From the NCBI GenBank assembly GCA_028280065.1, contig JANQMN010000013.1, positions 1 through 44,915 on the forward strand: a stretch of DNA of 44,915 nucleotides, read 5' to 3'. The first letter of the stretch is position 1. Each line of letters begins with the position of its first letter. The notes below the pieces were generated by a model that had not been told where the DNA came from, did not search any database, and was given only the letters and a program-made list of their open reading frames with translations. Positions 16,403-33,826 of this stretch are shown one piece after another. Position numbers and translations under genes: made by a program. The DNA is from Hahella sp. (GTDB lineage Bacteria > Pseudomonadota > Gammaproteobacteria > Pseudomonadales > Oleiphilaceae).

Positions 16403-16885
16403 TTAAAGCGGAATTATCAGCACCGGAATACTGCTGTTCTCCATGACATGACGAGCGACGGAGCCGATAAGCAGCCGTTTTACTCCCTTTGGCTGTCGCG
16501 TTCCCATCACGATCAGGTCGGCATGGTTTTTCTCTGCCGTGTCCAGAACTAAATCCCCAGGCCGCCCTTCCTTGACGATGGTTTCGGCAAGTAGATCCAG
16601 GTGCTGCTTTTCGCCTTCCATTTCTTCATTAAAGAAATTATCGATTTTGTCCCGAATAGTATCCTGCAATTCGGCAAACCCCTGCTCGCGTATACGCTTT
16701 ACTTCCTCCTGAGAAAGAAAGGTCTTGACCGCGCTGGCGCCATATTCTCCCTGCGGTTCAAGCGCATGAACCAGAATTACCCTGGCCTGGTACCGGACAG
16801 CAAGACTCGCTGCCATGCGGGTGACCGCACGTGTCGCAGGGTCAAGGGTGGTGGCGAAAACAATGGTATCAATCGCTGTGAGCAT
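16403..16885 (-). CDS. Universal stress protein, UspA-type
   Basis: A 160-residue UspA-fold protein. The ATP-binding pattern is clear: VFATTLDP at the first strand and the C-terminal GTRQPKGVKRLLIGSVARHV, which fits G-2x-G-9x-G-(S/T). Its start lies within the end of dld (17-bp overlap), so it is the last gene of the lactate operon and probably translationally coupled. A central insertion (DKIDNFFNEEMEGEKQHL) is helical and slightly longer than usual. The role in lactate metabolism, if any, is unknown. Confidence 0.88.
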   Translation of the reverse strand: MLTAIDTIVFATTLDPATRAVTRMAASLAVRYQARVILVHALEPQGEYGASAVKTFLSQEEVKRIREQGFAELQDTIRDKIDNFFNEEMEGEKQHLDLLAETIVKEGRPGDLVLDTAEKNHADLIVMGTRQPKGVKRLLIGSVARHVMENSSIPVLIIPL

Positions 16886-19838
16886 AGCGGCTGTCCTTCA
16901 AGGGTTTTGAATTTCTGTCGGCTGCTGTTTCGGCAGTGGTCCCGGTGTTGTCGGATTCGATAACCGGCAATGGTTTGCTGACGCGGTCTACCAGATAGCT
17001 AATGCTGCGATAGTGCATATCGCTGTGCTGAGAAAGCCCGATTTCGCAGGTTCTGCTGTTGGAAAATCCTTCTTTGCAGCCGGCTTTCCGGACTTGAAAC
17101 TTCAAGGTTTGCAGGGCACTGGCGTTTAACTCCGGATGCGAAAATCCCCGATCACCGGCGAAACCGCAGCAGGTGATATCTTCCGGGATAAACAGGGAGT
17201 CGCTACAAGCCTTGGCGATTCCGATCAGCTTTTGGGCCAATCCCATTTTTTGCGCACTGCAGGTCACGTGCAGCGCCACAGGACCTGGTTCGGGAACGAT
17301 ATTGAGAAAGGGTAGTACCTGGTCATGGATAAAGCTGAGGCTGTCGAAGATCTGCAACTCTTGGAATGCGGGGTTACCGGATAGAGCTTCGTGCAATCTG
17401 GCGGTACAGGGACTGGTATCGCAGAATATCGGATACCTGCCTTGTTCGCTGGCGTCCATGAGTGATGTCGCCAGCTGCGACGCCATATGTAATGCCTGAT
17501 CTGGAAACCCTTTGCTGTGGAACGGCATTCCACAGCACTGCTTTGCCTGTTGTTCGGGGAACAATACCTGGAATCCGGCTTTTTCCAGCAAGCGAACATT
17601 CACCGCCGCCAGACTGCCGGTTTCGTTGTCGCCCCTGGCAGGCCCCATGGTTCGTGCGGCGCAACTACCGAGATACACAACCTTCTTTGTCGATAACAAA
17701 CTGTTTTCAATGGATCCCGGCGGCATAGTGGGTGTAGCCGGCTGTGCCTTGGTCGGCAGATACGGATGCCAGATAGGTACTTTCCCGGCTGACAGTTTGT
17801 GCAATCCGCTACTGGTGGCAATTAACGCTTTGCTTCCCAGAGCGCCGTGTGCTTTGTCGGCGGCGTTTAACAGCAGGCCGGTGGACTTGGTAATCTTGTC
17901 AAAATTGTTTGCCGCCCAGACCGCTTTATTCAGATGGGATGCGTTGTTTTGCCGTCGATGGGCGCGGGTGAGATCTCCGGTATTGATCCCCACCGGGCAG
18001 CTTGTTGCGCAGAGGCCGCAGGCAGCACAGGTGGCATCACCGGCATATCGATAACTCTGCTGAAGCTGTGCCAGGAGTTCCGGGTTCTCCCTTGACGCAT
18101 CTAACCTCGCGATTTCCCGTGAGCCGGCGATGCGTTGTCTCGGCGTCAATGTTAGCTGGCGGGAAGGGCAGACGGGTTCGCAAAATCCGCATTCGATGCA
18201 TTTGTCCACCAGCGGGTCCACAGTCGGCAGGGGTTTCAGGTTTTTTAAGTGTACGTCCGGATCCTCATTGAGGATGACGCCCGGATTGAGGATATTGCCG
18301 GGATCGAATAACTGTTTGATTTTCTGCATTAACCGATAGGCATCCGGCCCCCATTCCATTTCGACGAACGGCGCCATATTTCTGCCGGTGCCATGTTCGG
18401 CTTTTAAAGAGCCGCCATATTCTCCCGCGACTAGTTCGGCAACGGCTTCCATCAATAGCCGGTAGCGTTCGATTTCCTCCTTGGAATCAAACTTTTGGGA
18501 AAACATGAAGTGCAGGTTGCCCGCCAGTGCATGACCGAAAATCAGCGCGTCCGTGTATTTGAATTTTTGGAAAAGGTTTTGCAGTTTTAAAACGCCCTCA
18601 GCCAAATGTTCCACTGGAAATGCGATATCTTCGATAACCACGGTGGATCCTGCCGGCCGCATGGCTCCCAGTGCGGGAAACAGGCCTTTGCGGACATGCC
18701 ATAGACGGGCGCATTGGTCTGCATCGGTGCTGAAGTGCAGGTCACCTAGCAACTGAAATTGCTTAAGTCTTTCTTCAATGGCGATAATCTGGGCTCTTAA
18801 ACTGGCAGGGTCACTGGCTCGGGTTTCGATTAAGAGTGCGGCTGCCTCTCCTGGCAGCATTTTAATACGGGCGGGGATACCCGGTTGCTCTTGAACGGAT
18901 TCCAGTCCCTTGCGGTCGATTAATTCCACAGCATTTACGGCAACAGATTGTAAAACGGATACCGCATTGCAGGTCTGTTGAATGTTTTCAAAGAAGACCA
19001 ATGCAGTCGCTTTATGCGGATGGTCTTCCACGGTTCGATAGGTGATTTCTGAAATAAAACCCAGCGTACCTTCGGAACCGATAAGCAGGTGGGTGAGAAT
19101 GTCGATGGGATCGGCAAAATCCAGTAATGCGTTTAAACCATAGCCGTTGGTGTTCTTCAGCCGGTATTTATGCCGAATCTTGTCACTGAGCGGAGGGTTG
19201 TCGAGCAGCATCTGGCGCAAGTCGGATAAGCCCGACAATAAATGCTTGTGGGATTGTTTGAAAAGCCGGCGGCTATCCCGGTCGCCGCTATCCAATACCG
19301 CACCGTCTGCCAGGACCACCCTTAGCGCCGTTAATGTATGGTAGCTATTGTGCCGGGTGCCACAGCACATGCCGCTGGCATTGTTAGCCGCGATACCGCC
19401 GATTTTTGCGGCGTTGATAGAGGCCGGGTCGGGGCCTATTTTCCGCTGATAAGGTACCAGGTGGTGGTTGGCGCGAGCGCCGATTACTCCGGGTTGCAAC
19501 CGGATTTTTTGGCCGCCGTCCAAGACTTCATGGTCTGTCCAGCCATCCATCACGACAAGCACAGAGTCGGTCACCGCCTGACCGGAAAGGCTGGTCCCCG
19601 CCGCACGAAAGGTCACCGGTGTCCGGTGCTTGGTTGCCAAGCAGAGCAAACTGACCAATTGGCTTTCATTGCGTATTTTCACTACGAGTTGTGGCACCAG
19701 CCGGTAGAAACTTGCGTCAGTGCCGTACGCGAGGCGCAGCAGAGGGTCGGTAACCAGCTGGTTTTTGTCGATGAATTGCTGCAGAGCGGCTTTGAAGTCG
19801 GCGAGCTTGTCGGGCATTGGATAGGCGGATTCGACCAT
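16869..19838 (-). CDS. dld: FAD/iron-sulfur D-lactate dehydrogenase, Dld-type
   Basis: A 989-residue flavoprotein. Order: FAD_binding_4 domain (residues about 35-270, with TFRAAGTSLSGQ and SGMCCGTRHN), FAD-oxidase C-terminal domain ending LKAEHGTGRNMAPF, two 4Fe-4S motifs (CIECGFCEPVCPS and CAACGLCATSCPVGI), and two CCG cysteine-rich motifs (QCCGMPFHSKGF, TCCGFAGDRGF). This is the layout of the quinone-linked D-lactate dehydrogenase found with lactate genes in Pseudomonas. It oxidises D-lactate to pyruvate at the inner membrane surface. It sits 11 bp after lutC and overlaps usp. Other 2-hydroxyacids such as 2-hydroxyglutarate are a possible alternative substrate. Confidence 0.85.
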   Translation of the reverse strand: MVESAYPMPDKLADFKAALQQFIDKNQLVTDPLLRLAYGTDASFYRLVPQLVVKIRNESQLVSLLCLATKHRTPVTFRAAGTSLSGQAVTDSVLVVMDGWTDHEVLDGGQKIRLQPGVIGARANHHLVPYQRKIGPDPASINAAKIGGIAANNASGMCCGTRHNSYHTLTALRVVLADGAVLDSGDRDSRRLFKQSHKHLLSGLSDLRQMLLDNPPLSDKIRHKYRLKNTNGYGLNALLDFADPIDILTHLLIGSEGTLGFISEITYRTVEDHPHKATALVFFENIQQTCNAVSVLQSVAVNAVELIDRKGLESVQEQPGIPARIKMLPGEAAALLIETRASDPASLRAQIIAIEERLKQFQLLGDLHFSTDADQCARLWHVRKGLFPALGAMRPAGSTVVIEDIAFPVEHLAEGVLKLQNLFQKFKYTDALIFGHALAGNLHFMFSQKFDSKEEIERYRLLMEAVAELVAGEYGGSLKAEHGTGRNMAPFVEMEWGPDAYRLMQKIKQLFDPGNILNPGVILNEDPDVHLKNLKPLPTVDPLVDKCIECGFCEPVCPSRQLTLTPRQRIAGSREIARLDASRENPELLAQLQQSYRYAGDATCAACGLCATSCPVGINTGDLTRAHRRQNNASHLNKAVWAANNFDKITKSTGLLLNAADKAHGALGSKALIATSSGLHKLSAGKVPIWHPYLPTKAQPATPTMPPGSIENSLLSTKKVVYLGSCAARTMGPARGDNETGSLAAVNVRLLEKAGFQVLFPEQQAKQCCGMPFHSKGFPDQALHMASQLATSLMDASEQGRYPIFCDTSPCTARLHEALSGNPAFQELQIFDSLSFIHDQVLPFLNIVPEPGPVALHVTCSAQKMGLAQKLIGIAKACSDSLFIPEDITCCGFAGDRGFSHPELNASALQTLKFQVRKAGCKEGFSNSRTCEIGLSQHSDMHYRSISYLVDRVSKPLPVIESDNTGTTAETAADRNSKPLKDSRYAHSD

Positions 19839-19849
19839 CTGAGTTCACC

Positions 19850-20554
19850 CTAGTTGTCTTGAATAAACAGTACGACCAGGCGTTTGGGGCCGTGTGCCCC
19901 ATAAGCAAGGGTCTGTTGGATGTCGGCGGTTTTTGACGGCCCGGATATAAGCAGCATATTGGTCGGCAGTTGAGCGAAGTGAGTTGTCTGCATGGCAGTC
20001 TGCAAGTCGGGGAATAGCCGGCTCGCTCTGACGGTCATGTAGTTCACTTCCGGCACCAGCGACAGCGTTCTCGGTTCGTCCGGACCCGTGGCTAACACCA
20101 AGGTGCCGGTATCGGAAATACCTGCAACGGCATGGGAAAGCCCTGCTTGGATTTGATTGAACATGCGGTCTTTGATTTCCTCAATCGGGATATCGAATTT
20201 CACCAGTTCAAGGCCTTTTTCTGCCAAACCTGTAAGCGAACGATTGTTCGAATGCCCTGGGGCGTACAGCAACGGGTCAATTTGCTTATCCGACAAATCC
20301 TGCGCCAAAGCCTCTTGCCAATTCGCACCAGTGGTAGAGATGACTTCGGTATGCGCTGCTTGTAGCTTTGCCAGAAATCCCTCTTGGTCGGCGGGAGACT
20401 TGGCTGCTGGGGTCATATCGCCTCCATCCTTCTCAGAATGCGCCTGCTTTGTCGGTTTTACCGGCTGATAGCGTTGTAACCGGTGCAGAATAGCTTGTTT
20501 GGCTTGACTGTTTCGTTCTGGATTGGGTTGCGACAAGTCATGGGTGCTATTCAT
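19850..20554 (-). CDS. lutC: LutC-type lactate utilisation protein (LUD domain)
   Basis: A 234-residue protein from the ATG at 20554; a longer frame to 20656 would overlap lutB by over 100 bp and is rejected. The first 80 residues are polar. The LUD (LutC/YkgG) domain follows, with GISDTGTLVLATGPDEPRTLSLV and the C-terminal LLISGPSKTADIQQTLAYGAHGP, both typical of the family. LutA, LutB and LutC together form the iron-sulfur L-lactate oxidation system first described in Bacillus. The start overlaps the lutB stop by 8 bp. Confidence 0.9.
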   Translation of the reverse strand: MNSTHDLSQPNPERNSQAKQAILHRLQRYQPVKPTKQAHSEKDGGDMTPAAKSPADQEGFLAKLQAAHTEVISTTGANWQEALAQDLSDKQIDPLLYAPGHSNNRSLTGLAEKGLELVKFDIPIEEIKDRMFNQIQAGLSHAVAGISDTGTLVLATGPDEPRTLSLVPEVNYMTVRASRLFPDLQTAMQTTHFAQLPTNMLLISGPSKTADIQQTLAYGAHGPKRLVVLFIQDN

Positions 20555-22007
20555 AGTTTTTCTCCAAATGCTTCTTCGCCAACTCATGAAGTGATTCAGC
20601 CGCCGGCCGGGGTGCCGTTCGATACTCCGTCCATGCGCCGAGTTTTCTTGGGGCAAGCAGTCGAAATCTACCCGCCGCCCGAAGAAATAGCCGGTATAGC
20701 TTGGGTGAGGTCGATAACCATGCCCACAACCGCCAGCTTATGGCTTCCAGTGTCTTACGCTGTGATCCTTTGCCCGGAGTTTGGGAGGTGGCGGTCAAAT
20801 CGTTGCCTTCGTGGCGTAACCGGCGAATCAGGTCCGGTAATGGGATATTCACCGGACAGGCATCCCGGCAAGCGCCATTCAGCGAACAGGCTTGGGTAAG
20901 CGCACCGGATTTTTCGATTCCCCAAAGCTGGGGGCTGACTACCTGGCCAATCGGACCCGGATAGGTGGAGCCGTAGGCATGGCCGCCAATGCGGCTGTAT
21001 ACCGGACAGTGATTCATACAGGCGCCGCAACGGATACAGCGCAGGGTTTGCTGTAATTGTTGGTCTGCGTATATACGCGAACGGCCGTTATCCAGTAATA
21101 CGACATGGACTTCCCTTGGCCCGTCCGGTTCATTCGTTTGACGGGGCCCGTTGATCATATTGAAATAGGTGGTAATCTCCTGGCCGGTGGCGGAACGGGT
21201 CAGCAAGCGCAATAGGGGAGGGATGTCCTGCAAGGTCTCCACAACCTTTTCAATGCCACAGAGAGCAATGTGCACCGGTGGAATGGTAGTGCTCATTCTG
21301 CCGTTACCCTCGTTTTCCACCAGGCAAAGGGTACCGGTTTCGGCAACGGCAAAATTCACACCGGACAGTCCGACGTCTGCTTCGGCAAATTTTTCCCGCA
21401 ATATCTGACGGCCGATGCCGATCAGTTTGTCCACATCTTCGGTATAATCCACGCCTACCTTTTGTTCAAACAGCTTGGCGATTTGCTGTTTGTTTTTGTG
21501 GATCGCCGGCATGATGATATGGGAAGGCTGGGATTGGTCGAGTTGGACGATGTATTCGCCCATATCTGTCTCGAGCGCTTCGATTCCGTGCGCTTCCAGA
21601 AAATGATTCAGCCCGGTTTCTTCGGATGCCATGGATTTGCCTTTCACCATGCGTTTGGCGTTGTGCGATTGCATGATGCCGAGAATGATCTCGTTGGCTT
21701 GATCGGCGGTTTCCGCCCAGTGAACGCGGACCCCGTTGGTCGTGGCAGCCGCTTCAAACTGTTCAAGCAACTCAGGTAACTTTTGCAGACAGCGATGTCG
21801 AATCGCCTCTCCCTCACTGCGCCAGGCGTCAAATTCCGCGGCATCGGGAAGCACGGATGCCCGTTTTGCGGTGAGAAAATCCATGGCGCCTCGGAAGTTG
21901 GACCGCAATTCCTGATCTTGCAGCGCTTCCTGAATCCGGCTTTGCAAGTCTTTGGTTTCTGCCACCCGAAGTTCTTTGTGCATCGTTGTCGCTCTTGGGG
22001 TTGTCAT
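20547..22007 (-). CDS. lutB: LutB-type iron-sulfur lactate utilisation protein
   Basis: A 486-residue protein. The N-terminal two thirds is a LUD domain (VKGKSMASEETGLNHFLEAH, then GVNFAVAETGTLCLVENEGN). It is followed by a ferredoxin-like pair of Cys clusters, CIRCGACMNHCPVYSRIGG and CSLNGACRDACPVNI, and a DUF3390-like tail (WRLWAWLSTSPKLYRL). It carries electrons from L-lactate oxidation within the LutABC complex. The start overlaps the lutA stop as ATGA, giving translational coupling. Confidence 0.93.
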   Translation of the reverse strand: MTTPRATTMHKELRVAETKDLQSRIQEALQDQELRSNFRGAMDFLTAKRASVLPDAAEFDAWRSEGEAIRHRCLQKLPELLEQFEAAATTNGVRVHWAETADQANEIILGIMQSHNAKRMVKGKSMASEETGLNHFLEAHGIEALETDMGEYIVQLDQSQPSHIIMPAIHKNKQQIAKLFEQKVGVDYTEDVDKLIGIGRQILREKFAEADVGLSGVNFAVAETGTLCLVENEGNGRMSTTIPPVHIALCGIEKVVETLQDIPPLLRLLTRSATGQEITTYFNMINGPRQTNEPDGPREVHVVLLDNGRSRIYADQQLQQTLRCIRCGACMNHCPVYSRIGGHAYGSTYPGPIGQVVSPQLWGIEKSGALTQACSLNGACRDACPVNIPLPDLIRRLRHEGNDLTATSQTPGKGSQRKTLEAISWRLWAWLSTSPKLYRLFLRAAGRFRLLAPRKLGAWTEYRTAPRPAAESLHELAKKHLEKNYE

Positions 22008-22789
22008 TGGGTGCGTTCCCAGAGGAAGGTAGCAAGGTGTTTTGCCGGCAGTTTATCCTTGCGTTTTTCCAGCGCGCCACTGATATTCATCATGCAGCCG
22101 CAGTCGCCGGTCACCAGCAATTCCGCCCTGGTGTTGACCAGGCTGTCGCACTTGTCTTGCACCATGGCATTGGAAATGGCCGGAGATTTCACGGCAAAGG
22201 TACCGCCGAAGCCACAACATTCATGGCCGCGCTCTTGGGTCATATGGGAGACGTTTCGGAGTTGGCCAATGAGCTGGTTACCGCAATCGGCGACTTTGGC
22301 ATGGCGTTGCGCACTGCAACTGTGGTGGGCCACGACTTTTACCGGTTGACCCTTGTCTTGGAGCTGTACTTTGCAAACATGCACCAGGAACTCGGTCAGT
22401 TCGAAGGTTCTGGCAGCGAACTCCGCAGCCGCGGACTCCAGCGGAGTAGCTTTGAACAACTCCGGGTAATGCCGGCGAATCATGCCGGCGCAGGAGGCAG
22501 AAGGCACGACAATTGGCAGATTCTCGGGAAAGGCGTCTATCTGGGCGGCCGCAACGGTTTGGCTTTCCTTATCGTAGCCCGAATTGAATGCGGGTTGACC
22601 GCAGCAGGATTGTCGTTCCGGGTAGATGACCTGAACCCCTTCCCGTTCCAGCAGCTGTATGCCATGTAATCCGGCCTCCGGATAAAACAGATCGATCAGG
22701 CAGGTGCCGAAGTAATACACCTGGTTCGGCTTCGGCGGATATCGCCGCACTTCAGACCCTGAAGTATGAGTATTCAATCTTGCATTCAT
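22004..22789 (-). CDS. lutA: LutA-type Fe-S oxidoreductase (CCG domains)
   Basis: A 261-residue protein with two cysteine-rich CCG domains, seen as SCCGQPAFNSGY and ECCGFGGTFAVK, each preceded by a conserved Cys-bearing strand (YYFGTCLIDLFYPEAG, VAHHSCSAQRHAKV). This is the LutA/GlpC-like arrangement that binds an unusual iron-sulfur cluster. The first roughly 15 residues (TSGSEVRRYPP) are probably flexible. It follows dctM by about 100 bp in the same operon, tying lactate uptake to its oxidation. Confidence 0.92.
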   Translation of the reverse strand: MNARLNTHTSGSEVRRYPPKPNQVYYFGTCLIDLFYPEAGLHGIQLLEREGVQVIYPERQSCCGQPAFNSGYDKESQTVAAAQIDAFPENLPIVVPSASCAGMIRRHYPELFKATPLESAAAEFAARTFELTEFLVHVCKVQLQDKGQPVKVVAHHSCSAQRHAKVADCGNQLIGQLRNVSHMTQERGHECCGFGGTFAVKSPAISNAMVQDKCDSLVNTRAELLVTGDCGCMMNISGALEKRKDKLPAKHLATFLWERTQ

Positions 22790-22888: not shown

Positions 22889-24274
22889 TCACTGGTAGGC
22901 AATGGCAGGCAGCCAGGTAACCAACTGCGGCAGCATGGCAATAATCAGCAAGCCGACCAGCTGTAAGACGATAAAGGGAATCACGCCCCTATATATTTCT
23001 GCCAGTCTGACTTGCGGCGGACAAACCCCTTTTAAATAGAACAGTGAAAAGCCCATGGGAGGGGTTAAAAAAGAGGTTTGCAATGCCACGGCAACCAGCA
23101 TCACAAACCAAACCAGTTCGGGATTATCCACGACGCCGTAACCATTGATATCCAGGCCAAGGCTGCTAATGACAGGAGCCACCAAGGGCAGAATGATGAG
23201 CGTGATTTCAATCCAGTCGAGGAAGAATCCCAAGAGAAAGATGATTCCCAAGATAAAGGCGATGATGCCGTAGGGTCCAAAAGGTAAGCCGGTCAGCAAC
23301 CCTTCGATAAATTCGTCGCCGCCCAACTCTCTAAGTACCAGGGCAAAACAGGTCGCCCCGATAAAGATGGCGAAAATATAGGCCGTGGTGTTGTAGCTTC
23401 CGGTCAATACCTCTTTAAACACTTTGAAGTTCAGTTTTTTGTTGTACCAGGCCAAGAGAATAGCGCCAAGCGCGCCTACGCCGCTGGCTTCCGTCGGTGT
23501 GGCTATGCCCGCGAAGATCGAGCCCAATACGGCAATGATCAAGGCCACGGTAGGCAGTACGTCGCGCAGGACGTTTAGTAAAGTTTTCCAAGATATCGGT
23601 GCCGCGTCTTGGGGTATAGGCATAACTTCAGGTTTAACAATGCCAAGGATAAGAATGTAGCTGATGTATAAGATCCCCAGTAACAATCCGGGAAAAACCG
23701 CGCCCATAAACAGGTCGCCGACGGACAGGGCTAACTGGTCCGCCATTATCACCAACATGATGGATGGCGGAATCAGAATGCCCAGTGTTCCGGAACTGGC
23801 AATCACGCCGAGAGCGAGAGAAGTCTGATAGTTCTGCCGTTGCATGGTGCCGAGCGACAAAAGCCCGAGCAAAACGACAGATGCACCGACTATACCGGTC
23901 GACGCTGCCAAAATAATGCCGATCATTATCACCGTGATGGCTAAACCGCCGCGCACCCGCCCGAACAGCTCCTGCATGGACTTCATCAAGCGTTCCGCGA
24001 CACCGGAACGGTCCAACATGATTCCCATGAATATGAACATAGGCAATGCCACCAGTACCCAGTTGTCCATCACTTTGTAAAGGCGGTTAACCACCAGCCC
24101 CAACGTATTGAAGTCCAATCCGGTTGCCGTACCCATGTAGGTATCCGTTACAAAACCGACGCCGGCAAAGATTACCCCGATGCCGCCGAGAACATAGGCC
24201 ACCGGATAACCGGTAAATAGTAATGCGATGAAACTGCAGAACATGGCGACGACGAGGATCTCGTTAATACTCAT
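22889..24274 (-). CDS. dctM: TRAP transporter large permease DctM
   Basis: A 461-residue membrane protein of the DctM family, the ion-coupled transport channel of a TRAP system. About 12 hydrophobic segments are visible, with family landmarks VALPMFIFMGIMLDRSGVAERL near the N-terminus and FLLGFFLDWIEITLIILPLVAPV and LQTSFLTPPMGFSLFYLKGV near the C-terminus. It is separated from dctQ by a single base. The binding protein and downstream genes point to lactate or a related monocarboxylate. Confidence 0.94.
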   Translation of the reverse strand: MSINEILVVAMFCSFIALLFTGYPVAYVLGGIGVIFAGVGFVTDTYMGTATGLDFNTLGLVVNRLYKVMDNWVLVALPMFIFMGIMLDRSGVAERLMKSMQELFGRVRGGLAITVIMIGIILAASTGIVGASVVLLGLLSLGTMQRQNYQTSLALGVIASSGTLGILIPPSIMLVIMADQLALSVGDLFMGAVFPGLLLGILYISYILILGIVKPEVMPIPQDAAPISWKTLLNVLRDVLPTVALIIAVLGSIFAGIATPTEASGVGALGAILLAWYNKKLNFKVFKEVLTGSYNTTAYIFAIFIGATCFALVLRELGGDEFIEGLLTGLPFGPYGIIAFILGIIFLLGFFLDWIEITLIILPLVAPVISSLGLDINGYGVVDNPELVWFVMLVAVALQTSFLTPPMGFSLFYLKGVCPPQVRLAEIYRGVIPFIVLQLVGLLIIAMLPQLVTWLPAIAYQ

Positions 24275-24275
24275 T

Positions 24276-24794
24276 TCAGGCCCCCCGCGTCAGCAAAATG
24301 ATTTCCCGCAGTAAGCGGGACAACGCCGCGAGGAACAACATGGCAAAGCTGATCGGGATCACCGATTTAATCAGCCAGCGATAGGGAAGGCCGGTTGGCG
24401 CATCCGAGCGCTCGTTAATGCGGAAAGAGTCGGCAACGAAATCCAGGCTGTGGATAAAGATAACCGCGATAAAGGGCATCAACAGCAGCAGTATGCCCAG
24501 AATCTCAAAAATACGCTGGGTTTTTCTCGACAGCCTGGTATGCAGTAAATCCACCCGGATGTGACTGTTGGTGGCTTGGGCATAGGAAATACCGAACATT
24601 ACCCCGACGGCATAAAGGTGCCACTGCAGCTCTTCCAGGACCACTAGTCCTCTGGCAAAACCATAGCGTAGAACTACCTGTAATATGATCACGGCCACCA
24701 GCAGCGCATAGCACCAGGCTATCCAACTGCCTGTCTTCAAGATAAATTTGTCAATCAGGTCCGCTGTGAAGACCTTCGGCATTTTCTCAGACAC
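24276..24794 (-). CDS. dctQ: TRAP transporter small permease DctQ
   Basis: A 172-residue protein with four membrane segments: WIAWCYALLVAVIILQVVLRY, the LQWHLYAVGVMFGISYA segment, ILLLLMPFIAVIFIHSL and SFAMLFLAALSRL. The HIRVDLL element after the second segment is characteristic of DctQ. It supports the large subunit DctM in the inner membrane. It lies 99 bp after dctP, with a hairpin in the gap. Confidence 0.92.
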   Translation of the reverse strand: MSEKMPKVFTADLIDKFILKTGSWIAWCYALLVAVIILQVVLRYGFARGLVVLEELQWHLYAVGVMFGISYAQATNSHIRVDLLHTRLSRKTQRIFEILGILLLLMPFIAVIFIHSLDFVADSFRINERSDAPTGLPYRWLIKSVIPISFAMLFLAALSRLLREIILLTRGA

Positions 24795-24845
24795 GAGGCG
24801 CTCCTCCGTTTCCGGATGGCTGGATAAGTTGGGGAGGTTGAAACC

Positions 24846-24881
24846 AACGGGAAGCCGGTTAGGTAGTACAGACTTCCCGTT
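24846..24881. promoter_or_regulatory. Stem-loop between dctP and dctQ
   Basis: A perfect 9-bp inverted repeat (AACGGGAAG at 24846-24854, CTTCCCGTT at 24873-24881) with an 18-nt loop lies 12 bp after the dctP stop. There is no T-run. As with the liv stem-loop, it probably stabilises the binding-protein message or attenuates readthrough, giving excess DctP over permease. Function is inferred from position. Confidence 0.6.
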
Positions 24882-24893
24882 CGTTAGATTTGC

Positions 24894-25997
24894 CTAGCCG
24901 TTACGGGGAAGGAAGGCGTATTTTTCCCACCGGTCATAGCCGGTCCGAAACTCTTCCATGTCGCTCCAGGCCTTTTTGAAGAAAGGATCTTTCTGCACTT
25001 CCTCCTCTATCACTCGGTCCCAGGTGGATCTAAAGGTGTCGAGCATCTGGTCGTTCCAGTACCGAATATGCACGCCATTTTCAGCCTCGTTTTTGGCCAT
25101 TACCGTAAACTGCATGGATTCGCCCTCAGCCAGGGAGTTCGCCATGGATGCCATGCAAGTGGTTTCAATCAGGGACTGTTGGGTTCTACTGAAGCTTTGC
25201 CATTCGTCTTTATTGATAAGCAGCTCGAATACGGTGGCTTGTTGATGCCAACCAGGGAAGTAGTTGTATTTGACGACCTTGTGCAGACCCAAGCGCTGGT
25301 CGATGGCCGGCTGGGAAAACTCGGTGGCATCCAGTGCGCCTTTCTCCAATGCCGGGAAGATCTCGCCGCCCGGAAGCAGGCTGGTGGATACCCCGAGTTC
25401 TTCCATCACTTTCGCGCCCAAACCCATGAACCGCATGCGCAGACCTTTTAAGTCTTCCGGGCTTTCAATCGGTTTGCTGAACCACCCGGACGTTTCCGGC
25501 GAAATTATGGCGCAGGGGATGACTTTCACGTTATAGCCGGCCTGGTCGTACATTTCCTGGTATAACTTACCGCCATTGCCGTAGTTCAGCCATGCCAGGT
25601 ATTCCGGTGCTTCCGGGCCGAAGGGTACCGCGGAAAAAAGCGGAGCGGCGGGAATTTTGCCCGCCCAATAGGCGGCAGTCGTGTAACCGGCATTAACCTT
25701 TCCGCTGGAAACCGATTCCAGGATTTCAAAAGGCGCGACGAGTTTTCCCGGTTCGTAGATTTTCATTTTGACCGAGCCACCGCTGGCGGTTTCCAGGTGA
25801 TCCTTAATCCACAGCGCCGGAGATCCTAAGGCAGGTAACGTCGTTGCAAAAGCGACGGGAACTTTTAACAGAATGTCTTTCTGTTCAGAGGTGGTTGGCT
25901 GAGCTGTGGCGTTGGAAGTGCTGGGTTGACATGCCGTTAGATTTGCAAGTCCCATGGCCACTGCGATTGTTGCGCCGATGGCTGTAATGGATTTCAT
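24894..25997 (-). CDS. dctP: TRAP transporter substrate-binding protein (lactate/keto-acid type)
   Basis: A 367-residue binding protein from the ATG at 25997, which has AGGAG 7 nt upstream; a GTG frame to 26069 is rejected. The N-terminus is a lipoprotein signal ending LTAC before QPSTS, so the protein is probably membrane-tethered. The body matches the TakP-like DctP subgroup: LPGGEIFPALEKGALDATEF, then RLGLHKVVKYNYFPGWHQ. Known members of that subgroup bind 2-oxo acids or lactate, which suits the downstream lut/dld genes. It is the first gene of the operon. Substrate identity is inferred from context and subgroup. Confidence 0.87.
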   Translation of the reverse strand: MKSITAIGATIAVAMGLANLTACQPSTSNATAQPTTSEQKDILLKVPVAFATTLPALGSPALWIKDHLETASGGSVKMKIYEPGKLVAPFEILESVSSGKVNAGYTTAAYWAGKIPAAPLFSAVPFGPEAPEYLAWLNYGNGGKLYQEMYDQAGYNVKVIPCAIISPETSGWFSKPIESPEDLKGLRMRFMGLGAKVMEELGVSTSLLPGGEIFPALEKGALDATEFSQPAIDQRLGLHKVVKYNYFPGWHQQATVFELLINKDEWQSFSRTQQSLIETTCMASMANSLAEGESMQFTVMAKNEAENGVHIRYWNDQMLDTFRSTWDRVIEEEVQKDPFFKKAWSDMEEFRTGYDRWEKYAFLPRNG

Positions 25998-26075
25998 AGT
26001 GACTCCTACTTGAATTGTTTTTGTTACAGGGTCGTACTTCGGACTGCTCGTATGTAATGGGCTAACCAAATTTAT

Positions 26076-26092
26076 AATTGGTCATACCAATT
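26076..26092. promoter_or_regulatory. PdhR box 1 (operator)
   Basis: A perfect palindrome, AATTGGT-CAT-ACCAATT, contains the E. coli PdhR consensus ATTGGT-NNN-ACCAAT without mismatch. It lies 79 bp before dctP and about 12 bp downstream of the expected start of transcription, where a bound repressor would block the polymerase. Confidence 0.85.
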
Positions 26093-26110
26093 TACCAAGG
26101 TATGTTTTTC

Positions 26111-26139
26111 AACCTAATCCATCTTGGTGCTACTGTCAA
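26111..26139 (-). promoter_or_regulatory. Candidate promoter of the lactate operon
   Basis: Read leftward, a perfect TTGACA (26139-26134) is followed after 17 bp by TAGGTT (26116-26111). The -35 is ideal and the -10 is poor (three of six). The predicted start near 26104 places PdhR box 1 just inside the transcript. The long gap from there to the dctP start codon would be a leader of about 107 nt. Confidence 0.45.
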
Positions 26140-26240
26140 TCGATAATTGCGCAAAAATTGTCCATGCCAGGTAAAAATAGACTATAGTTGTAAGTGGCTT
26201 GAATATAGAGCTTGCATCGGTTGTTTTTTGGCGAGAGAAA

Positions 26241-26255
26241 ATTGGTAATACCAAT
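26241..26255. promoter_or_regulatory. PdhR box 2 (operator)
   Basis: A second perfect ATTGGT-AAT-ACCAAT palindrome. Its centre is 164 bp from that of box 1 and about 300 bp before pdhR. The spacing of two operators on either side of the promoter is like the two LldR operators of E. coli lldPRD, suggesting looping or dual control of the divergent pdhR promoter. Confidence 0.85.
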
Positions 26256-26548
26256 AGGCTTCTAAGCAGTATCTATGTTCTATGCCGGATCAAGAAACCC
26301 TCCTGACCGCTAACCGGGAACGGTTGTTAAACTGAAAAAATCAGGTAGGTGAAAGGGTAAAGGAATGCTGAAACCGGAGTCTTAGGTAAAAAACCTATGG
26401 CATACCGAATTTGGACTAAGCTTGAGTAACGATTAAGGTCGCAAATGGCAATAAATCCGGCTGAGTTGATCCATTTAGCAGTCAGTTACGAACCTATAGG
26501 GCCGGCGAAGGTCGTATTTGGGTACAGCACGTTTACGAAACAAATATC
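26256..26548. other. Leader region of pdhR
   Basis: About 290 bp with no gene. It holds an inverted repeat TAGGT-AAAAA-ACCTA (26383-26397) of unknown meaning. No convincing -35/-10 pair for pdhR could be chosen, and no strong ribosome site precedes the ATG at 26549. Confidence 0.5.
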
Positions 26549-27313
26549 ATGGGGCATATAGTCGCGTTGAAACAGCCGAAACTTTCCGATGTGATTCTGG
26601 AACGTCTGGAGCAAATGATTTTGGAAGGAAGCCTTAAACCCGGCCAGCGTTTACCTCCCGAGCGCGAATTGGCAAGCCAGTTTGAAGTGTCCAGACCCTC
26701 CATTCGGGAGGCCATTCAGAAACTGGAAGCCAAGGGTTTGGTGGTGCGTCGGCAGGGCGGCGGCAATTTCATATCCGAACAACTGGGCAGCAGCTATACG
26801 GAACCGCTGTTTGAACTGATTAGCAGGCACCCGGAATCCCAGTACGATCTGCTGGAATTTCGCCATGCCTTGGAAGGAGTTTCGTCTTATTACGCAGCTT
26901 TGCGGGGAACCGATGCCGATCGGCGTATCATTGAAAAACGTTTTGGCGAATGGTTGTCCGCTCATCAGGCCAGAGACACGGAAAATGAGGCCAGGGCCGA
27001 TGCCGAGTTCCATTTGTCAATAGCTGAAGCGGCGCATAATGTGGTTTTGCTTCATACTATGCGCTCATTGTTTACCTTGTTAAAGCAGAATATTGTAGGC
27101 AACCTGAGATTTTTGTACGAAGACGAGGCGGCGAGAGACAAAATCAAAGCCCAACATACTCGTATGAGAGACGCCGTTGTAGCCCGCGATCCGCAATTAA
27201 GCCGCAGTGCTGCACACGACCATTTGGCGTTTGTTGAAGAAATATTACTAGAAAAGAACCGGGCCGAATCCAGAAATATGCGCGCCTTAAGGCGTCTGCA
27301 GAACCTGGAGTAG
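26549..27313 (+). CDS. pdhR: PdhR-type GntR/FCD transcriptional regulator
   Basis: A 254-residue repressor of the FadR subfamily. Residues 8-75 form the winged helix (KLSDVILERLEQMILEGSL, then LPPERELASQFEVSRPSIRE and KGLVVRRQGGGNFI). Residues about 95-235 form the FCD ligand domain (QYDLLEFRHALEGVSSYYAAL, LSIAEAAHNVVLLHTMRSL). The resemblance to E. coli PdhR is strong along the length, including the C-terminal HLAFVEEILLEKNRAESR. PdhR senses pyruvate and releases DNA when pyruvate is high. It precedes aceE by 150 bp, as in E. coli, and is divergent from the lactate operon, which carries two PdhR boxes. Confidence 0.93.
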   Translation: MGHIVALKQPKLSDVILERLEQMILEGSLKPGQRLPPERELASQFEVSRPSIREAIQKLEAKGLVVRRQGGGNFISEQLGSSYTEPLFELISRHPESQYDLLEFRHALEGVSSYYAALRGTDADRRIIEKRFGEWLSAHQARDTENEARADAEFHLSIAEAAHNVVLLHTMRSLFTLLKQNIVGNLRFLYEDEAARDKIKAQHTRMRDAVVARDPQLSRSAAHDHLAFVEEILLEKNRAESRNMRALRRLQNLE

Positions 27314-27409
27314 GCCGGGCTGGAAAACCAACTATTGTGTTTTGGGGCTGCTTGTTAGTCCTTGGGGAAAACCAGAAGAAAGTCCACGGGACGGCCCACA
27401 AGACCCCCC

Positions 27410-27424
27410 TGTGGTGTACACAAT
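27410..27424. promoter_or_regulatory. Degenerate PdhR-box-like site before aceE
   Basis: TGTGGT-GTA-CACAAT agrees with the PdhR consensus at eight of twelve specified positions and lies 39 bp before the aceE start codon. It also contains the perfect palindrome GTGTACAC. It may be a weak operator for autoregulation of aceEF or may be chance. Confidence 0.25.
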
Positions 27425-27463
27425 TTCACACCCAAGCTTAGCCGTATAAAAGGAGTAACCTTT

Positions 27464-30118
27464 ATGCATGATGATGCCGATCCTATTGAAACCCAGGAAT
27501 GGCTAGAAGCCATTGAGTCGGTGATTGAAAATGAGGGCATCGAGCGTGCGACTTACCTGATGACCAGGCTCGGTGAACGAGCCACTCGGGATGGTACGCA
27601 ACTGCCATATTCGATCATTACCCCGTACCGGAATACCATTCCCAACACCAAGGAAGCCAGGATGCCTGGTGATTTGTTCATGGAGCGCCGAATTCGTTCC
27701 CTGGTGCGATGGAATGCATTGGCCATGGTATTGCGGGCCAATAAACGGCCGGGTGATTTGGGCGGACACCTTTCTTCTTTTTCCTCGATAGCCACACTCT
27801 ACGATGTCGGCTTTAACTACTTTTTCCATGCCGGCGACGAACGCCGGGAAGGCGACCTGATCTATTGGCAGGGGCATACTTCTCCCGGCATCTATGCCCG
27901 TTCCTTCCTGGAAGGGCGAATCAGTGAGGAGCAGATGGATAATTTCCGCCGCGAAGTTGACGGTAACGGATTGTCTTCCTATCCGCACCCCTGGTTGATG
28001 CCGGATTACTGGCAGTTTCCCACGGTGTCCATGGGGCTAGGGCCGATTCAGGCGATCTATCAGGCGCACGTCTTGCGCTATCTGGAAAATAGGGAACTGG
28101 TCAGCAGCGTCGATCGAAAAATCTGGTGTTATGTCGGCGATGGCGAATGTGACGAGCCGGAGACCCTTGGCGCTATCGGTGTCGCGGGGCGGGAAAAACT
28201 CGATAACCTGATTTTTGTCGTTAACTGTAACCTGCAACGTTTGGACGGACCGGTACGGGGTAACGGCAAGATTATCCAGGAATTGGAAGGCATCTTCCGT
28301 GGCGCCGGCTGGAACGTGATCAAGGTTGTCTGGGGCCGCTTGTGGGATCCACTGTTTGAAAAGGATACCCAAGGCATTATGCAGAAGTATATGGACCTTT
28401 CCGTCGATGGCGAAATGCAGAACTTTAAGTCTAACGGCGGTGCCTATACCCGGCAGCACTTCTTCGGCAAAGATCCGGATATGCTGAAGATGGTCGAAAA
28501 TATGTCCGACGAAGACATCTATAACCTGAACCGTGGCGGCCATGATCCTTACAAGGTTTATGCGGCCTATCACGCTGCCGTGCATCATAAGGGCCAGCCT
28601 ACCGTTATTCTGGCGCATACCATTAAAGGTTACGGCTTTGGTGAGCAGGGCGAAGCCCAGAACACCACTCACCAGTTAAAGAAACTGGATATTGATATCG
28701 TTAAGAAGTTTCGGGACCGCTTCGGAGTACCGATTCCTGACGACGAAATCGAAAAGCTGCCCTACTACCGCCCGTCGCCGGATTCTCCGGAAGCGCTTTA
28801 TATGAAGAAGCGCCGCGAAGACCTTGGCGGATTCCTGCCCAAGCGCCGGCCCGATACTCAACCGCTGCCGATACCCGAATTGCAGGCTTTCGATGCGGTC
28901 TTAAAGGGCAGTGGCGACCGGACGATTTCCACCACCATGGCGTTTGTCCGGGTGCTTAATGTGCTCGTTAAGGATAAACAAATCGGTAAGCGTATTATCC
29001 CGATTGTTCCAGACGAGGCGCGGACCTTCGGCATGGAGGGTATGTTCCGTCAGGTGGGTATCTACACGGCGGAAGGGCAGAAGTACGTTCCGAACGATCG
29101 CAATCAGATCATGTATTACCGGGAAGACAAAACCGGACAGGTGCTGGAAGAGGGCATCAATGAAGCCGGCGCAATGTCTGCCTGGATGGCCGCCGCGACA
29201 TCCTATAGCACCAATAACTATCCTCTGGTTCCGTTCTACATCTACTACTCAATGTTCGGCTTCCAGCGGGTCGGCGACCTGGCATGGGCGGCTGGTGATA
29301 TGCGCGCCAGGGGCTTCCTGTTGGGCGGCACCGCCGGACGGACGACCTTGAATGGCGAAGGTTTGCAGCATCAGGATGGCCACAGCCATATTCTTTCGGC
29401 AACCGTTCCTAACTGTGTTTCTTACGATCCGGTATATGGCTATGAGGTCGCAGTCATTATCCGTGAAGGAATGCGCCGGATGTACGAGGAAAACGAAAGC
29501 GTCTACTACTACCTGACATTGTTGAACGAGAACTATGAGCATCCTGCCATGCCGGAAGGTGCCGAAGAAGGCATTATCAAAGGCATGTACCTGTTCCAGG
29601 AAGGCAAGGATGACGGTATTGGCAAAGTCCAGTTGTTGGGGAGCGGCGCAATCTTCCGTGAAGTACTGGAAGGCGCCAAGCTCTTGAAGCAGGATTTTGA
29701 TATCGACGCGGATATCTGGTCAGTCACCAGCTTTACCGAGCTGGCGCGGGAAGGTCACCACAAACGGCGTTGGAATATGCTACACCCGGAAGCACCGCGC
29801 CAGGAAAGCTATATCAAGTTGATGCTGAAAGATCGGAAAGGCCCGGTTCTGGCTGCCACCGATTATATGCGGATGTTTGCCGATCAGGTGCGCCAGTTTA
29901 TCCCGCAACAGGTGATGCATGTGCTGGGTACGGACGGTTTCGGCCGTAGCGATACCCGTGAAAAACTACGTCATCACTTTGAGGTCGATCGCTACTATGT
30001 GGTGGTCGGCGCGCTGGAGTGTCTGGCACGGGAACACACGATTGAACGTTCGGTTGTCTCGGAAGCTATTCGGAAGTACGGCATAGATCCTAACAAACCC
30101 AACCCTTTAAGCAGCTGA
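27464..30118 (+). CDS. aceE: Pyruvate dehydrogenase E1 component AceE (homodimeric)
   Basis: An 884-residue E1 enzyme that decarboxylates pyruvate with thiamine diphosphate and passes the acetyl group to the E2 lipoyl arm. The ThDP-binding motif is visible as GDGECDEPETLGAIG followed by the conserved LDNLIFVVNCNLQRLDG. Other landmarks are SFSSIATLYDVGFNYFFHA and the C-terminal YVVVGALECLAREHTIERS. The ATG at 27464 was chosen because AAGGAG sits 9 nt upstream and the length equals E. coli AceE; an open upstream extension to 27362 is not family-like. It forms an operon with aceF (15-bp gap). Confidence 0.97.
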   Translation: MHDDADPIETQEWLEAIESVIENEGIERATYLMTRLGERATRDGTQLPYSIITPYRNTIPNTKEARMPGDLFMERRIRSLVRWNALAMVLRANKRPGDLGGHLSSFSSIATLYDVGFNYFFHAGDERREGDLIYWQGHTSPGIYARSFLEGRISEEQMDNFRREVDGNGLSSYPHPWLMPDYWQFPTVSMGLGPIQAIYQAHVLRYLENRELVSSVDRKIWCYVGDGECDEPETLGAIGVAGREKLDNLIFVVNCNLQRLDGPVRGNGKIIQELEGIFRGAGWNVIKVVWGRLWDPLFEKDTQGIMQKYMDLSVDGEMQNFKSNGGAYTRQHFFGKDPDMLKMVENMSDEDIYNLNRGGHDPYKVYAAYHAAVHHKGQPTVILAHTIKGYGFGEQGEAQNTTHQLKKLDIDIVKKFRDRFGVPIPDDEIEKLPYYRPSPDSPEALYMKKRREDLGGFLPKRRPDTQPLPIPELQAFDAVLKGSGDRTISTTMAFVRVLNVLVKDKQIGKRIIPIVPDEARTFGMEGMFRQVGIYTAEGQKYVPNDRNQIMYYREDKTGQVLEEGINEAGAMSAWMAAATSYSTNNYPLVPFYIYYSMFGFQRVGDLAWAAGDMRARGFLLGGTAGRTTLNGEGLQHQDGHSHILSATVPNCVSYDPVYGYEVAVIIREGMRRMYEENESVYYYLTLLNENYEHPAMPEGAEEGIIKGMYLFQEGKDDGIGKVQLLGSGAIFREVLEGAKLLKQDFDIDADIWSVTSFTELAREGHHKRRWNMLHPEAPRQESYIKLMLKDRKGPVLAATDYMRMFADQVRQFIPQQVMHVLGTDGFGRSDTREKLRHHFEVDRYYVVVGALECLAREHTIERSVVSEAIRKYGIDPNKPNPLSS

Positions 30119-30133
30119 TAAGAGGAGATTGAC

Positions 30134-32089
30134 GTGAGTAAAGTGGAAGTCAAAATCCCCGACATCGGTGGTGCTACTGATGTTGAGGTTATTGAAGTAT
30201 GCGTGAGTCCGGGTGACAGTATCAGTGCCGAAGATGCGTTGGTTGTCCTGGAATCGGATAAAGCCTCCATGGATGTGCCCGCACCGGAAGCCGGCGTTGT
30301 CGTCGAAGTCAAGCTCAGTGTCGGCGACAAGGTAAACGAAGGTGATTTGATATTGGTGTTGCAGACGGAGGCGGCGACGGAGCCGGTTGCATCCAGCGCG
30401 GAAGCAGAAACGCCAGCCGCCCCGGCGGCACCCGCTGCGGCTCCTTCGACTCCTCCGGCAGCATCCGGATCCGGTGCGGCGGAAACCATCGCTGTGCCGG
30501 ATATTGGCGGGGCAGAAGGCGTCACGGTTATCGAGGTTTGCGTTGCTGTTGGCGACGAGGTGAATGCCGATGATCCGATAGTGGTTTTGGAATCGGACAA
30601 AGCCTCAATGGAAGTGCCTGCGCCTAAGGCCGGTAAAATCACCAAACTGCTGGTGGAAGTTAACGCCAAGGTGAGTGAAGGCAGTCCTTTGGCTGAGTTT
30701 GAAACCGGCGATTCAACCCCGGCAGCAACTGCGAGTGCGCCAGTTGCTGAACCCGCAGCCGCCGCCACGGCCGCCGCAACGCCTGCTTCTGAAGCGCCCG
30801 CTGCGGGCGGCACCCAAACGGTGACTGTCCCCGATATCGGTGGTTTCGAAGGGGTGACCATTATCGAATTGGAGGTTGCACCGGGCGATAAGGTTGCCGT
30901 TGATGATCCTATTCTGGTGCTGGAATCGGATAAGGCGACAATGGAAGTACCTTCGCCGGTTGCCGGGACCGTCAAGAGTCTGCTGGTCGGCGTTAATGAT
31001 AAGGTCAGTGAGGGTGATCCGATTGTCGAAATAGATGTGGAAGGTGGCGCCGCTCTTACTCCGGCACCATCGGCGCAACCCGCCGCTGCTCCCTCTCAAG
31101 CGCCTGCTCAAAAAGTCGAGACCGCACCGACCCCCGCGCCGCAAATAGGTCTGGCGCCGCATGCCGATAGTGCGAAGGTGCATGCCGGACCGTCTGTTCG
31201 CCGGGTCGCCAGGGAGTTTGGCGTTGACCTGACCATGGTCAAGGGTACCGGCCGCAAAGGAAGGATTCTTAAGGAAGATGTCCAGGCCTTTGTCAAAGCG
31301 GGTATGAAGCAGCTTAAAACAGGCGTGTCTGCAAGTGCTGCATCTTCCGGAGCTGGGTTGCCGACCATTAAGTTGCCGGACTTCTCTCAGTTTGGAACTA
31401 TCGACCGCTCCTCGATGAGCCGAATTCATCAGTTGACAGCGGAAAACATGTCCCGCAGCTGGCTGACGGTGCCGCATGTTACCCAGTTTGACGATGCCGA
31501 TATCACTGAACTGGAAGCCTTTCGAAAAGCCCAGAAAGCGGTCGCTGAAAAAAAAGGCGTGCGTTTGACACCTTTGCCGTTCATGCTGAAGGCCTGTGCC
31601 TATGCTTTGGAAGCGCTGCCGCAGTTCAATGTGTCCCTGGATATGGAAAAGCATGAAGTTATCCAGAAGCATTACGTGCATATCGGCATTGCCGTGGATA
31701 CGCCGGGTGGTTTGGTGGTCCCTGTGATTCGGGATGTGAACAAGAAAGGTATCTGGGAAATTGCCAAGGATTGTGCCGATATGGCCGCCAAAGCCAAGGA
31801 TAAAAAGCTGAAGCCCGCGGAAATGCAGGGTGGATGCTTTACGATTTCCAGCCTGGGCAGTATAGGCGGAACGGCGTTCACGCCGATTGTGAATACCCCG
31901 GAAGTGGCTATTCTCGGGATTTCCAAGGCGCAGATGAAACCGGTTTATGACGGTAAGGACTTCAATCCCAGATTGATGCTGCCCCTATGTCTGTCTTATG
32001 ACCATAGGGCAATCAATGGTGCGGACGCAGCCCGTTTTACCGCCATGCTTGGGCATCTATTGGGTGATATACGCAACTTACTGCTTTAG
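30134..32089 (+). CDS. aceF: Dihydrolipoyl acetyltransferase E2 AceF, three lipoyl domains
   Basis: A 651-residue E2 core subunit starting with GTG and preceded by AGAGGAG. Three lipoyl domains are repeated at about 1-75, 115-190 and 230-305, each with the lipoylated Lys in a VLESDKA(S/T)M motif. Ala/Pro-rich linkers join them. Then come the peripheral subunit-binding domain ([26 protein letters not shown]) and the catalytic core ending in [15 protein letters not shown], whose His is catalytic. Asn replaces Asp of the common DHRxxDG, a variant I recall from Azotobacter AceF. The third complex member, Lpd (E3), is not in this window. Confidence 0.97.
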
Positions 32090-33778: not shown

Positions 33779-33826
33779 TGATCACCCGGAGGCTTTGGTT
33801 GTGTTGGTAAGTCAAACCGCTTGTTG

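Follow-up and report, generated by a model that had tools for sequence, protein, structure and literature searches.

The 44,915-nucleotide stretch analysed here (hereafter the window), part of contig JANQMN010000013.1 of a Hahella sp. assembly (GCA_028280065.1), carries a divergent locus in which a predicted lactate utilisation operon is read leftwards and a GntR/FCD regulator gene, named pdhR below, is read rightwards together with the pyruvate dehydrogenase genes aceEF, with two predicted operator boxes in between (Table 1). An earlier sequence-only reading had described two perfect boxes between dctP and a PdhR-type gene, an operon of dctPQM, lutABC, dld and usp on one side, and pdhR followed by aceEF on the other; the boxes proved exact at the positions listed, and the gene content is supported by NCBIfam and Pfam matches. 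It had further proposed that one pyruvate sensor replaces a dedicated lactate regulator at this locus. We find that a single regulator likely serves both the lactate operon and pdhR-aceEF, and suggest that it is probably a metal-dependent repressor of the LldR type that answers to lactate.

The lutABC genes are assigned from a LutB/LldF equivalog above its cut-off, flanked by CCG and LUD proteins. The dld-type protein reaches no NCBIfam cut-off, and family knowledge and context suggest it is probably a D-lactate dehydrogenase. From dctP to usp, successive genes are spaced by 99, 1, 99, −4, −8, 11 and −17 bases and would be read as one transcript; the 8-base overlap between lutC and lutB follows from the lutC start as chosen. 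For dctP the ATG at 25997 is the most likely start, and a TTG at 26069 was dropped in its favour on account of the signal-like N-terminus. No lpd gene adjoins aceEF at the window locus; the best TIGR01350 match, an lpd candidate, lies ~70 kb further on the same contig, beside a distant aceF homologue. A gene for an LldP-family lactate permease is present elsewhere in the genome.

Table 1. Features of the divergent lactate/pyruvate dehydrogenase locus, in window coordinates
Feature	Position	Strand	Description
usp	16403..16885	-	Universal stress protein; Pfam Usp; 17-base overlap with dld
dld-type	16869..19838	-	FAD and 4Fe-4S dehydrogenase; Pfam FAD_binding_4, FAD-oxidase_C, Fer4
lutC (lldG-like)	19850..20554	-	LUD protein; Pfam LUD_dom; ATG start chosen by hand
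lutB (lldF-like)	20547..22007	-	Iron-sulfur LUD protein; TIGR00273 502.6 bits over 444.8; LUD_dom, LutB_C
lutA (lldE-like)	22004..22789	-	CCG domains; Pfam CCG
dctM	22889..24274	-	TRAP large permease; TIGR00786 304.9 over cut-off 268.45
dctQ	24276..24794	-	TRAP small permease; Pfam DctQ
dctP	24894..25997	-	TRAP solute-binding protein, lipoprotein-like signal; Pfam DctP
Operator 1 (lactate side)	26077..26091		Exact 15-mer ATTGGTCATACCAAT, predicted operator
Predicted lactate-operon promoter	26111..26139	-	TTGACA (26139-26134), 17-base spacer, TAGGTT (26116-26111)
Operator 2 (pdhR side)	26241..26255		Exact 15-mer ATTGGTAATACCAAT, predicted operator
pdhR (as named)	26549..27313	+	GntR/FCD regulator; NF007001 341.3 over 330
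aceE	27464..30118	+	Pyruvate dehydrogenase E1; TIGR00759 1454.4 bits, over cut-off; open reading frame opens at 27362, likely ATG 27464
aceF	30134..32089	+	E2, three lipoyl-type stretches; TIGR01348 754.7 over 552.1; NF008814 754.4 over 722

The pattern ATTGGT-N3-ACCAAT, with no mismatch allowed, is found at just these two places in the window and, equally, in the whole 6,676,736-base assembly (98% complete). Operator 1 is preceded by an extra TTGGT half-site on the transcribed strand, and operator 2 has its centre 301 bp before the ATG of pdhR, with a leader of ~290 bases between. When one mismatch is allowed the genome yields 27 further sites, against 20 for a control with the pattern written backwards (≤1 mismatch), so no wider regulon stands out. 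In the stretches read, neither the LldP-family permease gene nor the two best lpd candidates of this genome have a box with ≤1 mismatch. Across 95 PdhR-like loci (90 distinct, as five contigs are present twice), a box with ≤1 mismatch occurs within 700 bp upstream of the gene in 95/95, whereas the rest of these loci, ~1.44 million positions, holds 7 such sites. On this ground, and on the genome-wide uniqueness of the exact pattern, chance was rejected as the origin of the boxes.

On the lactate side, the predicted promoter is followed after 19 bases by operator 1, which would thus span roughly +13 to +27 relative to the predicted transcript start. The TAGGTT element is a poor −10 on its own, with 3/6 matches, and a generic promoter scan omits the lactate promoter for this reason; that scan returned 8 promoter-like sites in the window (shuffle mean 13.3) and 19 terminator-like sites (19.4). 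The arrangement is nevertheless conserved. Taking as lactate-type any lut, dld, lldD, lldP, dctP or AEC gene, 68 of 86 loci combine a lactate-type gene with a box inside 700 bp, and in 63 of these TTGAC starts 45-51 bases before the lactate-side box (the misses are G031, G221, G037, G071 and G192), whereas a block-shuffle control of 200 rounds averaged 0.7 such loci and never exceeded 4 of 68. The 63 loci span eight families and include many close relatives, and so do not count as 63 independent events. The conserved spacing therefore places the operator just past the expected transcript start, where repressors commonly bind.

All seven genomes of the genus Hahella, our own included, share the divergent plan and have two boxes (perfect or with one mismatch) before the regulator, so the conservation in related genomes on which the sequence-only reading had made its case depend is there. 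The same cannot be said of dctPQM. In the other six genomes lutA, not dctP, faces the regulator, and their best DctP, 43-46% identical, is located elsewhere; within the genus dctPQM stands beside pdhR only in this genome, and was for that reason rejected as part of a conserved regulon core. Further afield, dctPQM faces the regulator in one genome of the same family (G019, contig L048) and in Oceanospirillaceae-type records, and in Marinobacterium and Nitrincola this position is taken by dld with an AEC-type transporter.

In an order-wide sample of 293 Pseudomonadales genomes, 77 have a homologue of the regulator at E ≤ 1e-55, and all 77 loci were examined. A lactate-type gene is divergent within 700 bp in 64. 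Seven further loci, all of family f15, have their nearest lactate-type match 1.4-6.4 kb away (an lldD-like gene in four, weak dctP/dctM-like matches of 28-37% alone in three), and the remaining six lie near a contig edge, with 119 to 1403 bases of upstream sequence. A box (≤1 mismatch) is found within 700 bp at 71 of the 77 loci, with none in G102, G174, G080, G140, G259 and G315, and two or more boxes are found at 38. The regulator is followed by aceE in 25/77 loci, namely our own genome, 13 of family f37 (the Marinobacterium/Nitrincola type) and 11 of f15. The same box and divergent plan are thus used in many Pseudomonadales by homologues without aceEF; in family f36, for instance, 9 of 12 homologues are 54-58% identical to the window regulator and none has aceE downstream.

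A class-wide survey gave 12/276 genomes at E ≤ 1e-50, of which the nine new ones were examined and five have a box (≤1 mismatch, 700 bp). In two of these nine loci (L235 and L240), and in L150 from outside this set, dctPQM lies near lut/dld genes and a PdhR-like gene without aceEF; in L232, also of the nine, it does so with a distant lutA match alone. At position 2359 of L150 (G007), a perfect box precedes a separate dctPQM within a lutABC-dld locus, and this gives independent support to the inclusion of dctPQM in the regulon. L151 (G050), from a 1.9 Mb genome, has a perfect box at position 2471 before an lldD-AEC pair ~6 kb from pdhR-aceEF, and is a second way of joining lactate genes to pdhR-aceEF.

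Since the operators are conserved in 7/7 genus genomes and no other close LldR/PdhR homologue was found in the genome (the next best match is at E=1.4e-8, and there are four other FCD genes), a single regulator is the best reading of the locus. The four metal-site residues of the FCD fold, D151, H155, H203 and H225, are all present in the window regulator, and no row departs from this D/H/H/H set, either in the lactate-linked groups or in the Hahella, f37 and f15 groups linked to aceEF (10/10 for the Hahella type, of which two rows are one contig, and 18/18, 11/11, 2/2 and 50/50 for the others), and E. coli LldR has it as well. The 13 rows linked to pyruvate dehydrogenase (PDH) only, comprising E. 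coli PdhR and 12 of Alteromonadales type, have V, I or L at 151 and R at 203 in every case; H155 is lost in nine and kept in four, and H225 is kept in all 13. E. coli PdhR itself has lost the residues at 151, 155 and 203. In the class-wide set one locus, L233, has the E. coli-like order pdhR-aceEF-lpd, and there positions 151, 155 and 203 are V, Y and R; all four residues are kept in the other eight. As E. coli GlcC also has the complete site, its loss is probably derived. Loss at 151/203 as a mark of the E. coli-type PdhR is a comparison made here rather than a published definition, and the window regulator does not show it.

Related proteins indicate what these residues may do. In an alignment with DgoR, the counterparts of D151, H155 and H203 are D146, H150 and H195, which hold a divalent metal required for ligand binding (PMC7674646). 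In Corynebacterium glutamicum LldR zinc is held by H148, H196 and H218 (PMC4746285), of which H155, H203 and H225 would be the counterparts, judging from their spacing.

A close described parallel is in Pseudomonas, where PaPdhR/PlldP and PfPdhR/PlldP answer to lactate in its D- and L-forms but show no response to pyruvate; the E. coli LldR system is likewise not induced by pyruvate (PMC8827060). A further report has lldPDE repressed by P. aeruginosa LldR (PMC11389411). From their gene order, with lldP-lldD-dld divergent from the regulator, our family f20 loci would appear to be the systems of PMC8827060. They share with the window the divergent plan, the operator, a similar distance from TTGACA to the operator and, in the f20 rows, the intact FCD metal site, but differ in having no aceEF after the regulator, in having mostly lldP/lldD in place of dctPQM/lutABC, and in residue 67, which is S in f20 and R in the window. 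The f37 loci resemble the window in a different respect, with pdhR-aceEF divergent from dld and an AEC transporter or from dctPQM, with boxes and with an intact metal site; no lutABC was found in the stretches examined, and two of these genomes (G102 and G174) are among those without a box.

In E. coli, aceEF likewise follows the regulator, which is 53% identical to ours (E. coli LldR is 39% identical) and recognises the same box, but the pdhR locus has aroP as its neighbour rather than a lactate operon, and lpd is present. The sequence-only reading had set our locus against E. coli, with lldPRD under its own LldR and split from the PdhR operon. This contrast was overstated, because lldP of E. 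coli has a PdhR-bound site upstream of it that agrees with the consensus at 13/14 positions, and lldPRD mRNA is up 3.3-fold in a pdhR mutant (PMC7660256). For Shewanella, lldP-dld is a predicted target of a PdhR described as a broad regulator of central metabolism (PMC5343134), and most members of the genus are listed as having LldR*, a lactate regulator distinct from PdhR (PMC3223726). Control of lactate genes by PdhR is therefore already known in principle from E. coli lldPRD and, as a prediction, from Shewanella lldP-dld. Nor can the box be used to tell whether a regulator is PdhR or LldR, as homologues without aceEF share it and E. coli PdhR binds it upstream of lldP, and its use as an identifier of PdhR was rejected. 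Our search of the main texts of the open-licence literature, which left RegPrecise and subscription papers outside, found no description of the two-operator arrangement with dctPQM-lutABC-dld, nor of the metal-site difference between PdhR and LldR.

The reading we favour, at a probability of roughly 0.6, is a two-sided regulon in which a single LldR-type, metal-dependent repressor, released by lactate, controls both the lactate operon and aceEF. Such a repressor would belong to the PdhR clade by descent and gene order, and appears from its residues to have kept a sensor pocket of the LldR type. Without inducer, dimers on operator 1 would block dctPQM-lutABC-dld-usp, and dimers on operator 2 would dampen pdhR-aceEF. 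D- or L-lactate, and possibly pyruvate too, would bind at the FCD metal and the dimers would leave the DNA, so that uptake, oxidation of lactate to pyruvate, and pyruvate dehydrogenase would rise together. Of the earlier proposal, a single regulator for both sides survives, given two conserved operators and no second close homologue. That this regulator is a pyruvate sensor which took the place of a lactate regulator is not supported, in view of the intact metal site, the lactate-responsive Pseudomonas regulators (PMC8827060) and a box shared with loci that lack aceEF.

A number of observations nonetheless weigh against an LldR-type repressor, and several of them would suit a true pyruvate-sensing PdhR that has taken over the lactate operon, with the product pyruvate driving induction. 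The window regulator exceeds the PdhR equivalog cut-off (NF007001, Table 1) and falls short of the E. coli-based LldR model (NF007741, 225.5 vs 311); the PdhR cut-off is passed by 4/4 aceEF-linked relatives tested and failed by 5/5 homologues without aceEF. In a tree built with the metal-site columns masked, it groups not with the homologues lacking aceEF but with the E. coli PdhR clade, in a set of 28 rows (support 98/88) comprising the other Hahella rows, two of f38, those of f15 and the E. coli/Alteromonadales-type PdhR. The f37 rows and other homologues without aceEF fall outside this set, although the two f38 rows inside it also lack aceEF. R67, in the DNA-binding domain, is PdhR-like. 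In an AlphaFold2 model (30 sequences; mean pLDDT 84.7, pTM 0.61) the effector domain is well ordered and, among the 50 matches listed, fits E. coli PdhR 5tpm best (TMt 0.91-0.93), as descent would predict, and the fold as such is thus no argument for LldR. The metal site alone does not exclude pyruvate as a ligand, and L236 weakens any simple metal-site rule, since its regulator lies next to aceEF and keeps the whole site although a lactate gene was not found in the vicinity.

The transporter points in the same direction. The closest solved relatives of DctP are 7ug8, a 'Ketoacid-binding protein' (187 bits), and 2hzk (titled SmoM, 180 bits), which we take to be TakP with pyruvate as ligand; the lactate-binding TTHA0766 scores 95 bits (2zzv) and 74 bits (7e9y). 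DctP is thus nearer by sequence to keto-acid binders than to the lactate binder, so pyruvate may be a direct signal, and dctPQM reads as a putative monocarboxylate system with lactate or pyruvate as candidate substrate. Adding the linkage to aceEF and the binding of E. coli PdhR near lldP (PMC7660256), we still consider a takeover by a pyruvate sensor unlikely: the window regulator retains the metal site missing from E. coli PdhR, pyruvate has no effect on the Pseudomonas regulators whose loci appear to be of this type (PMC8827060), and the lactate-side promoter-operator spacing is the same as in loci without aceEF.

Operator 2 raises a different difficulty for a repressor controlling both sides, as it lies ~300 bp upstream of pdhR and is preceded by a weak promoter candidate only (7.5 of 12). 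The regulator may accordingly control the lactate operon alone, with aceEF expressed mainly from an unregulated promoter within the ~290-bp leader. We rank this next, and doubt it, because the second box recurs throughout the genus, two or more boxes are present at 38/77 order-level loci, and E. coli has a 14/14 box between aroP and pdhR (PMC7660256). Least probable in our estimation is a broad sensor of 2-hydroxy and 2-keto acids, whose metal would chelate lactate and pyruvate alike so that either induces both operons, for although an intact metal site combined with a PdhR-like residue 67, a keto-acid-type DctP beside lactate dehydrogenase genes and a tree position between the two kinds would all suit it, E. 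coli LldR and the Pseudomonas systems are not induced by pyruvate (PMC8827060).

The LldR-type repressor we favour also bears on where PdhR came from. Rooting the regulator tree with E. coli GlcC (end branch 7.8) failed, as it put the root within the Marinobacterium-type group, and the branch uniting homologues without aceEF is weak (84/7); linkage to aceEF may thus have been gained once or lost several times. Under either outgroup root, E. coli LldR or GlcC, the PDH-only PdhR is nested among lactate-linked loci, so the simpler reading is that the lineage leading to E. coli lost the lactate neighbour. We tentatively propose, short of even odds, that loci of the Hahella type preserve an intermediate stage from which PdhR arose, in which a metal-dependent lactate repressor lies between a lactate operon and aceEF, and that this repressor later lost its lactate neighbour and the metal-site residues 151, 203 and usually 155, to become the pyruvate sensor of the E. 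coli/Alteromonadales type. If so, many Pseudomonadales genes annotated as pdhR would encode lactate sensors, and bacteria of the Hahella and Marinobacterium types would induce pyruvate dehydrogenase in response to lactate. Loci of intermediate gene order would then join LldR and PdhR, both textbook regulators, and with the few residues named here, whose loss accompanies the shift between lactate-linked and PDH-only proteins, a small set of purified regulators would suffice to test how pyruvate sensing arose. A regulator called PdhR is not necessarily a sensor of pyruvate, as the Pseudomonas proteins so named answer to lactate (PMC8827060); a similar warning about names comes from 9jpj, an entry that goes by the name DhdR although its chain carries the title 'Pyruvate dehydrogenase complex repressor'.

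Some minor features of the locus and its surroundings may be recorded. The signal of DctP is lipoprotein-like (LTAC), where homologues with readable starts (L050, L052, L056 and L059) have an Ala-x-Ala-type signal; a tethered binding protein of the tripartite ATP-independent periplasmic (TRAP) type would be unusual in a Gram-negative bacterium. The gap between dctP and dctQ (24795-24893) forms a strong predicted hairpin (−30.8 kcal/mol, z −3.0, with 1/200 shuffles as low), which perhaps keeps expression of dctP above that of dctQM; the dctM-lutA gap has no comparable hairpin (z 0.5). Rfam and tRNA scans of the window gave no matches. On the same strand, 356 bases beyond usp, lies a gene for a TctC-type tricarboxylate-binding receptor (15054-16046), with no tctAB-type partner among the adjacent open reading frames scanned. 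At the other end, two genes convergent with aceF (32129-35959) encode a lipoprotein-like protein without an NCBIfam match and an FHA-domain protein with similarity, under the cut-off, to TagH.

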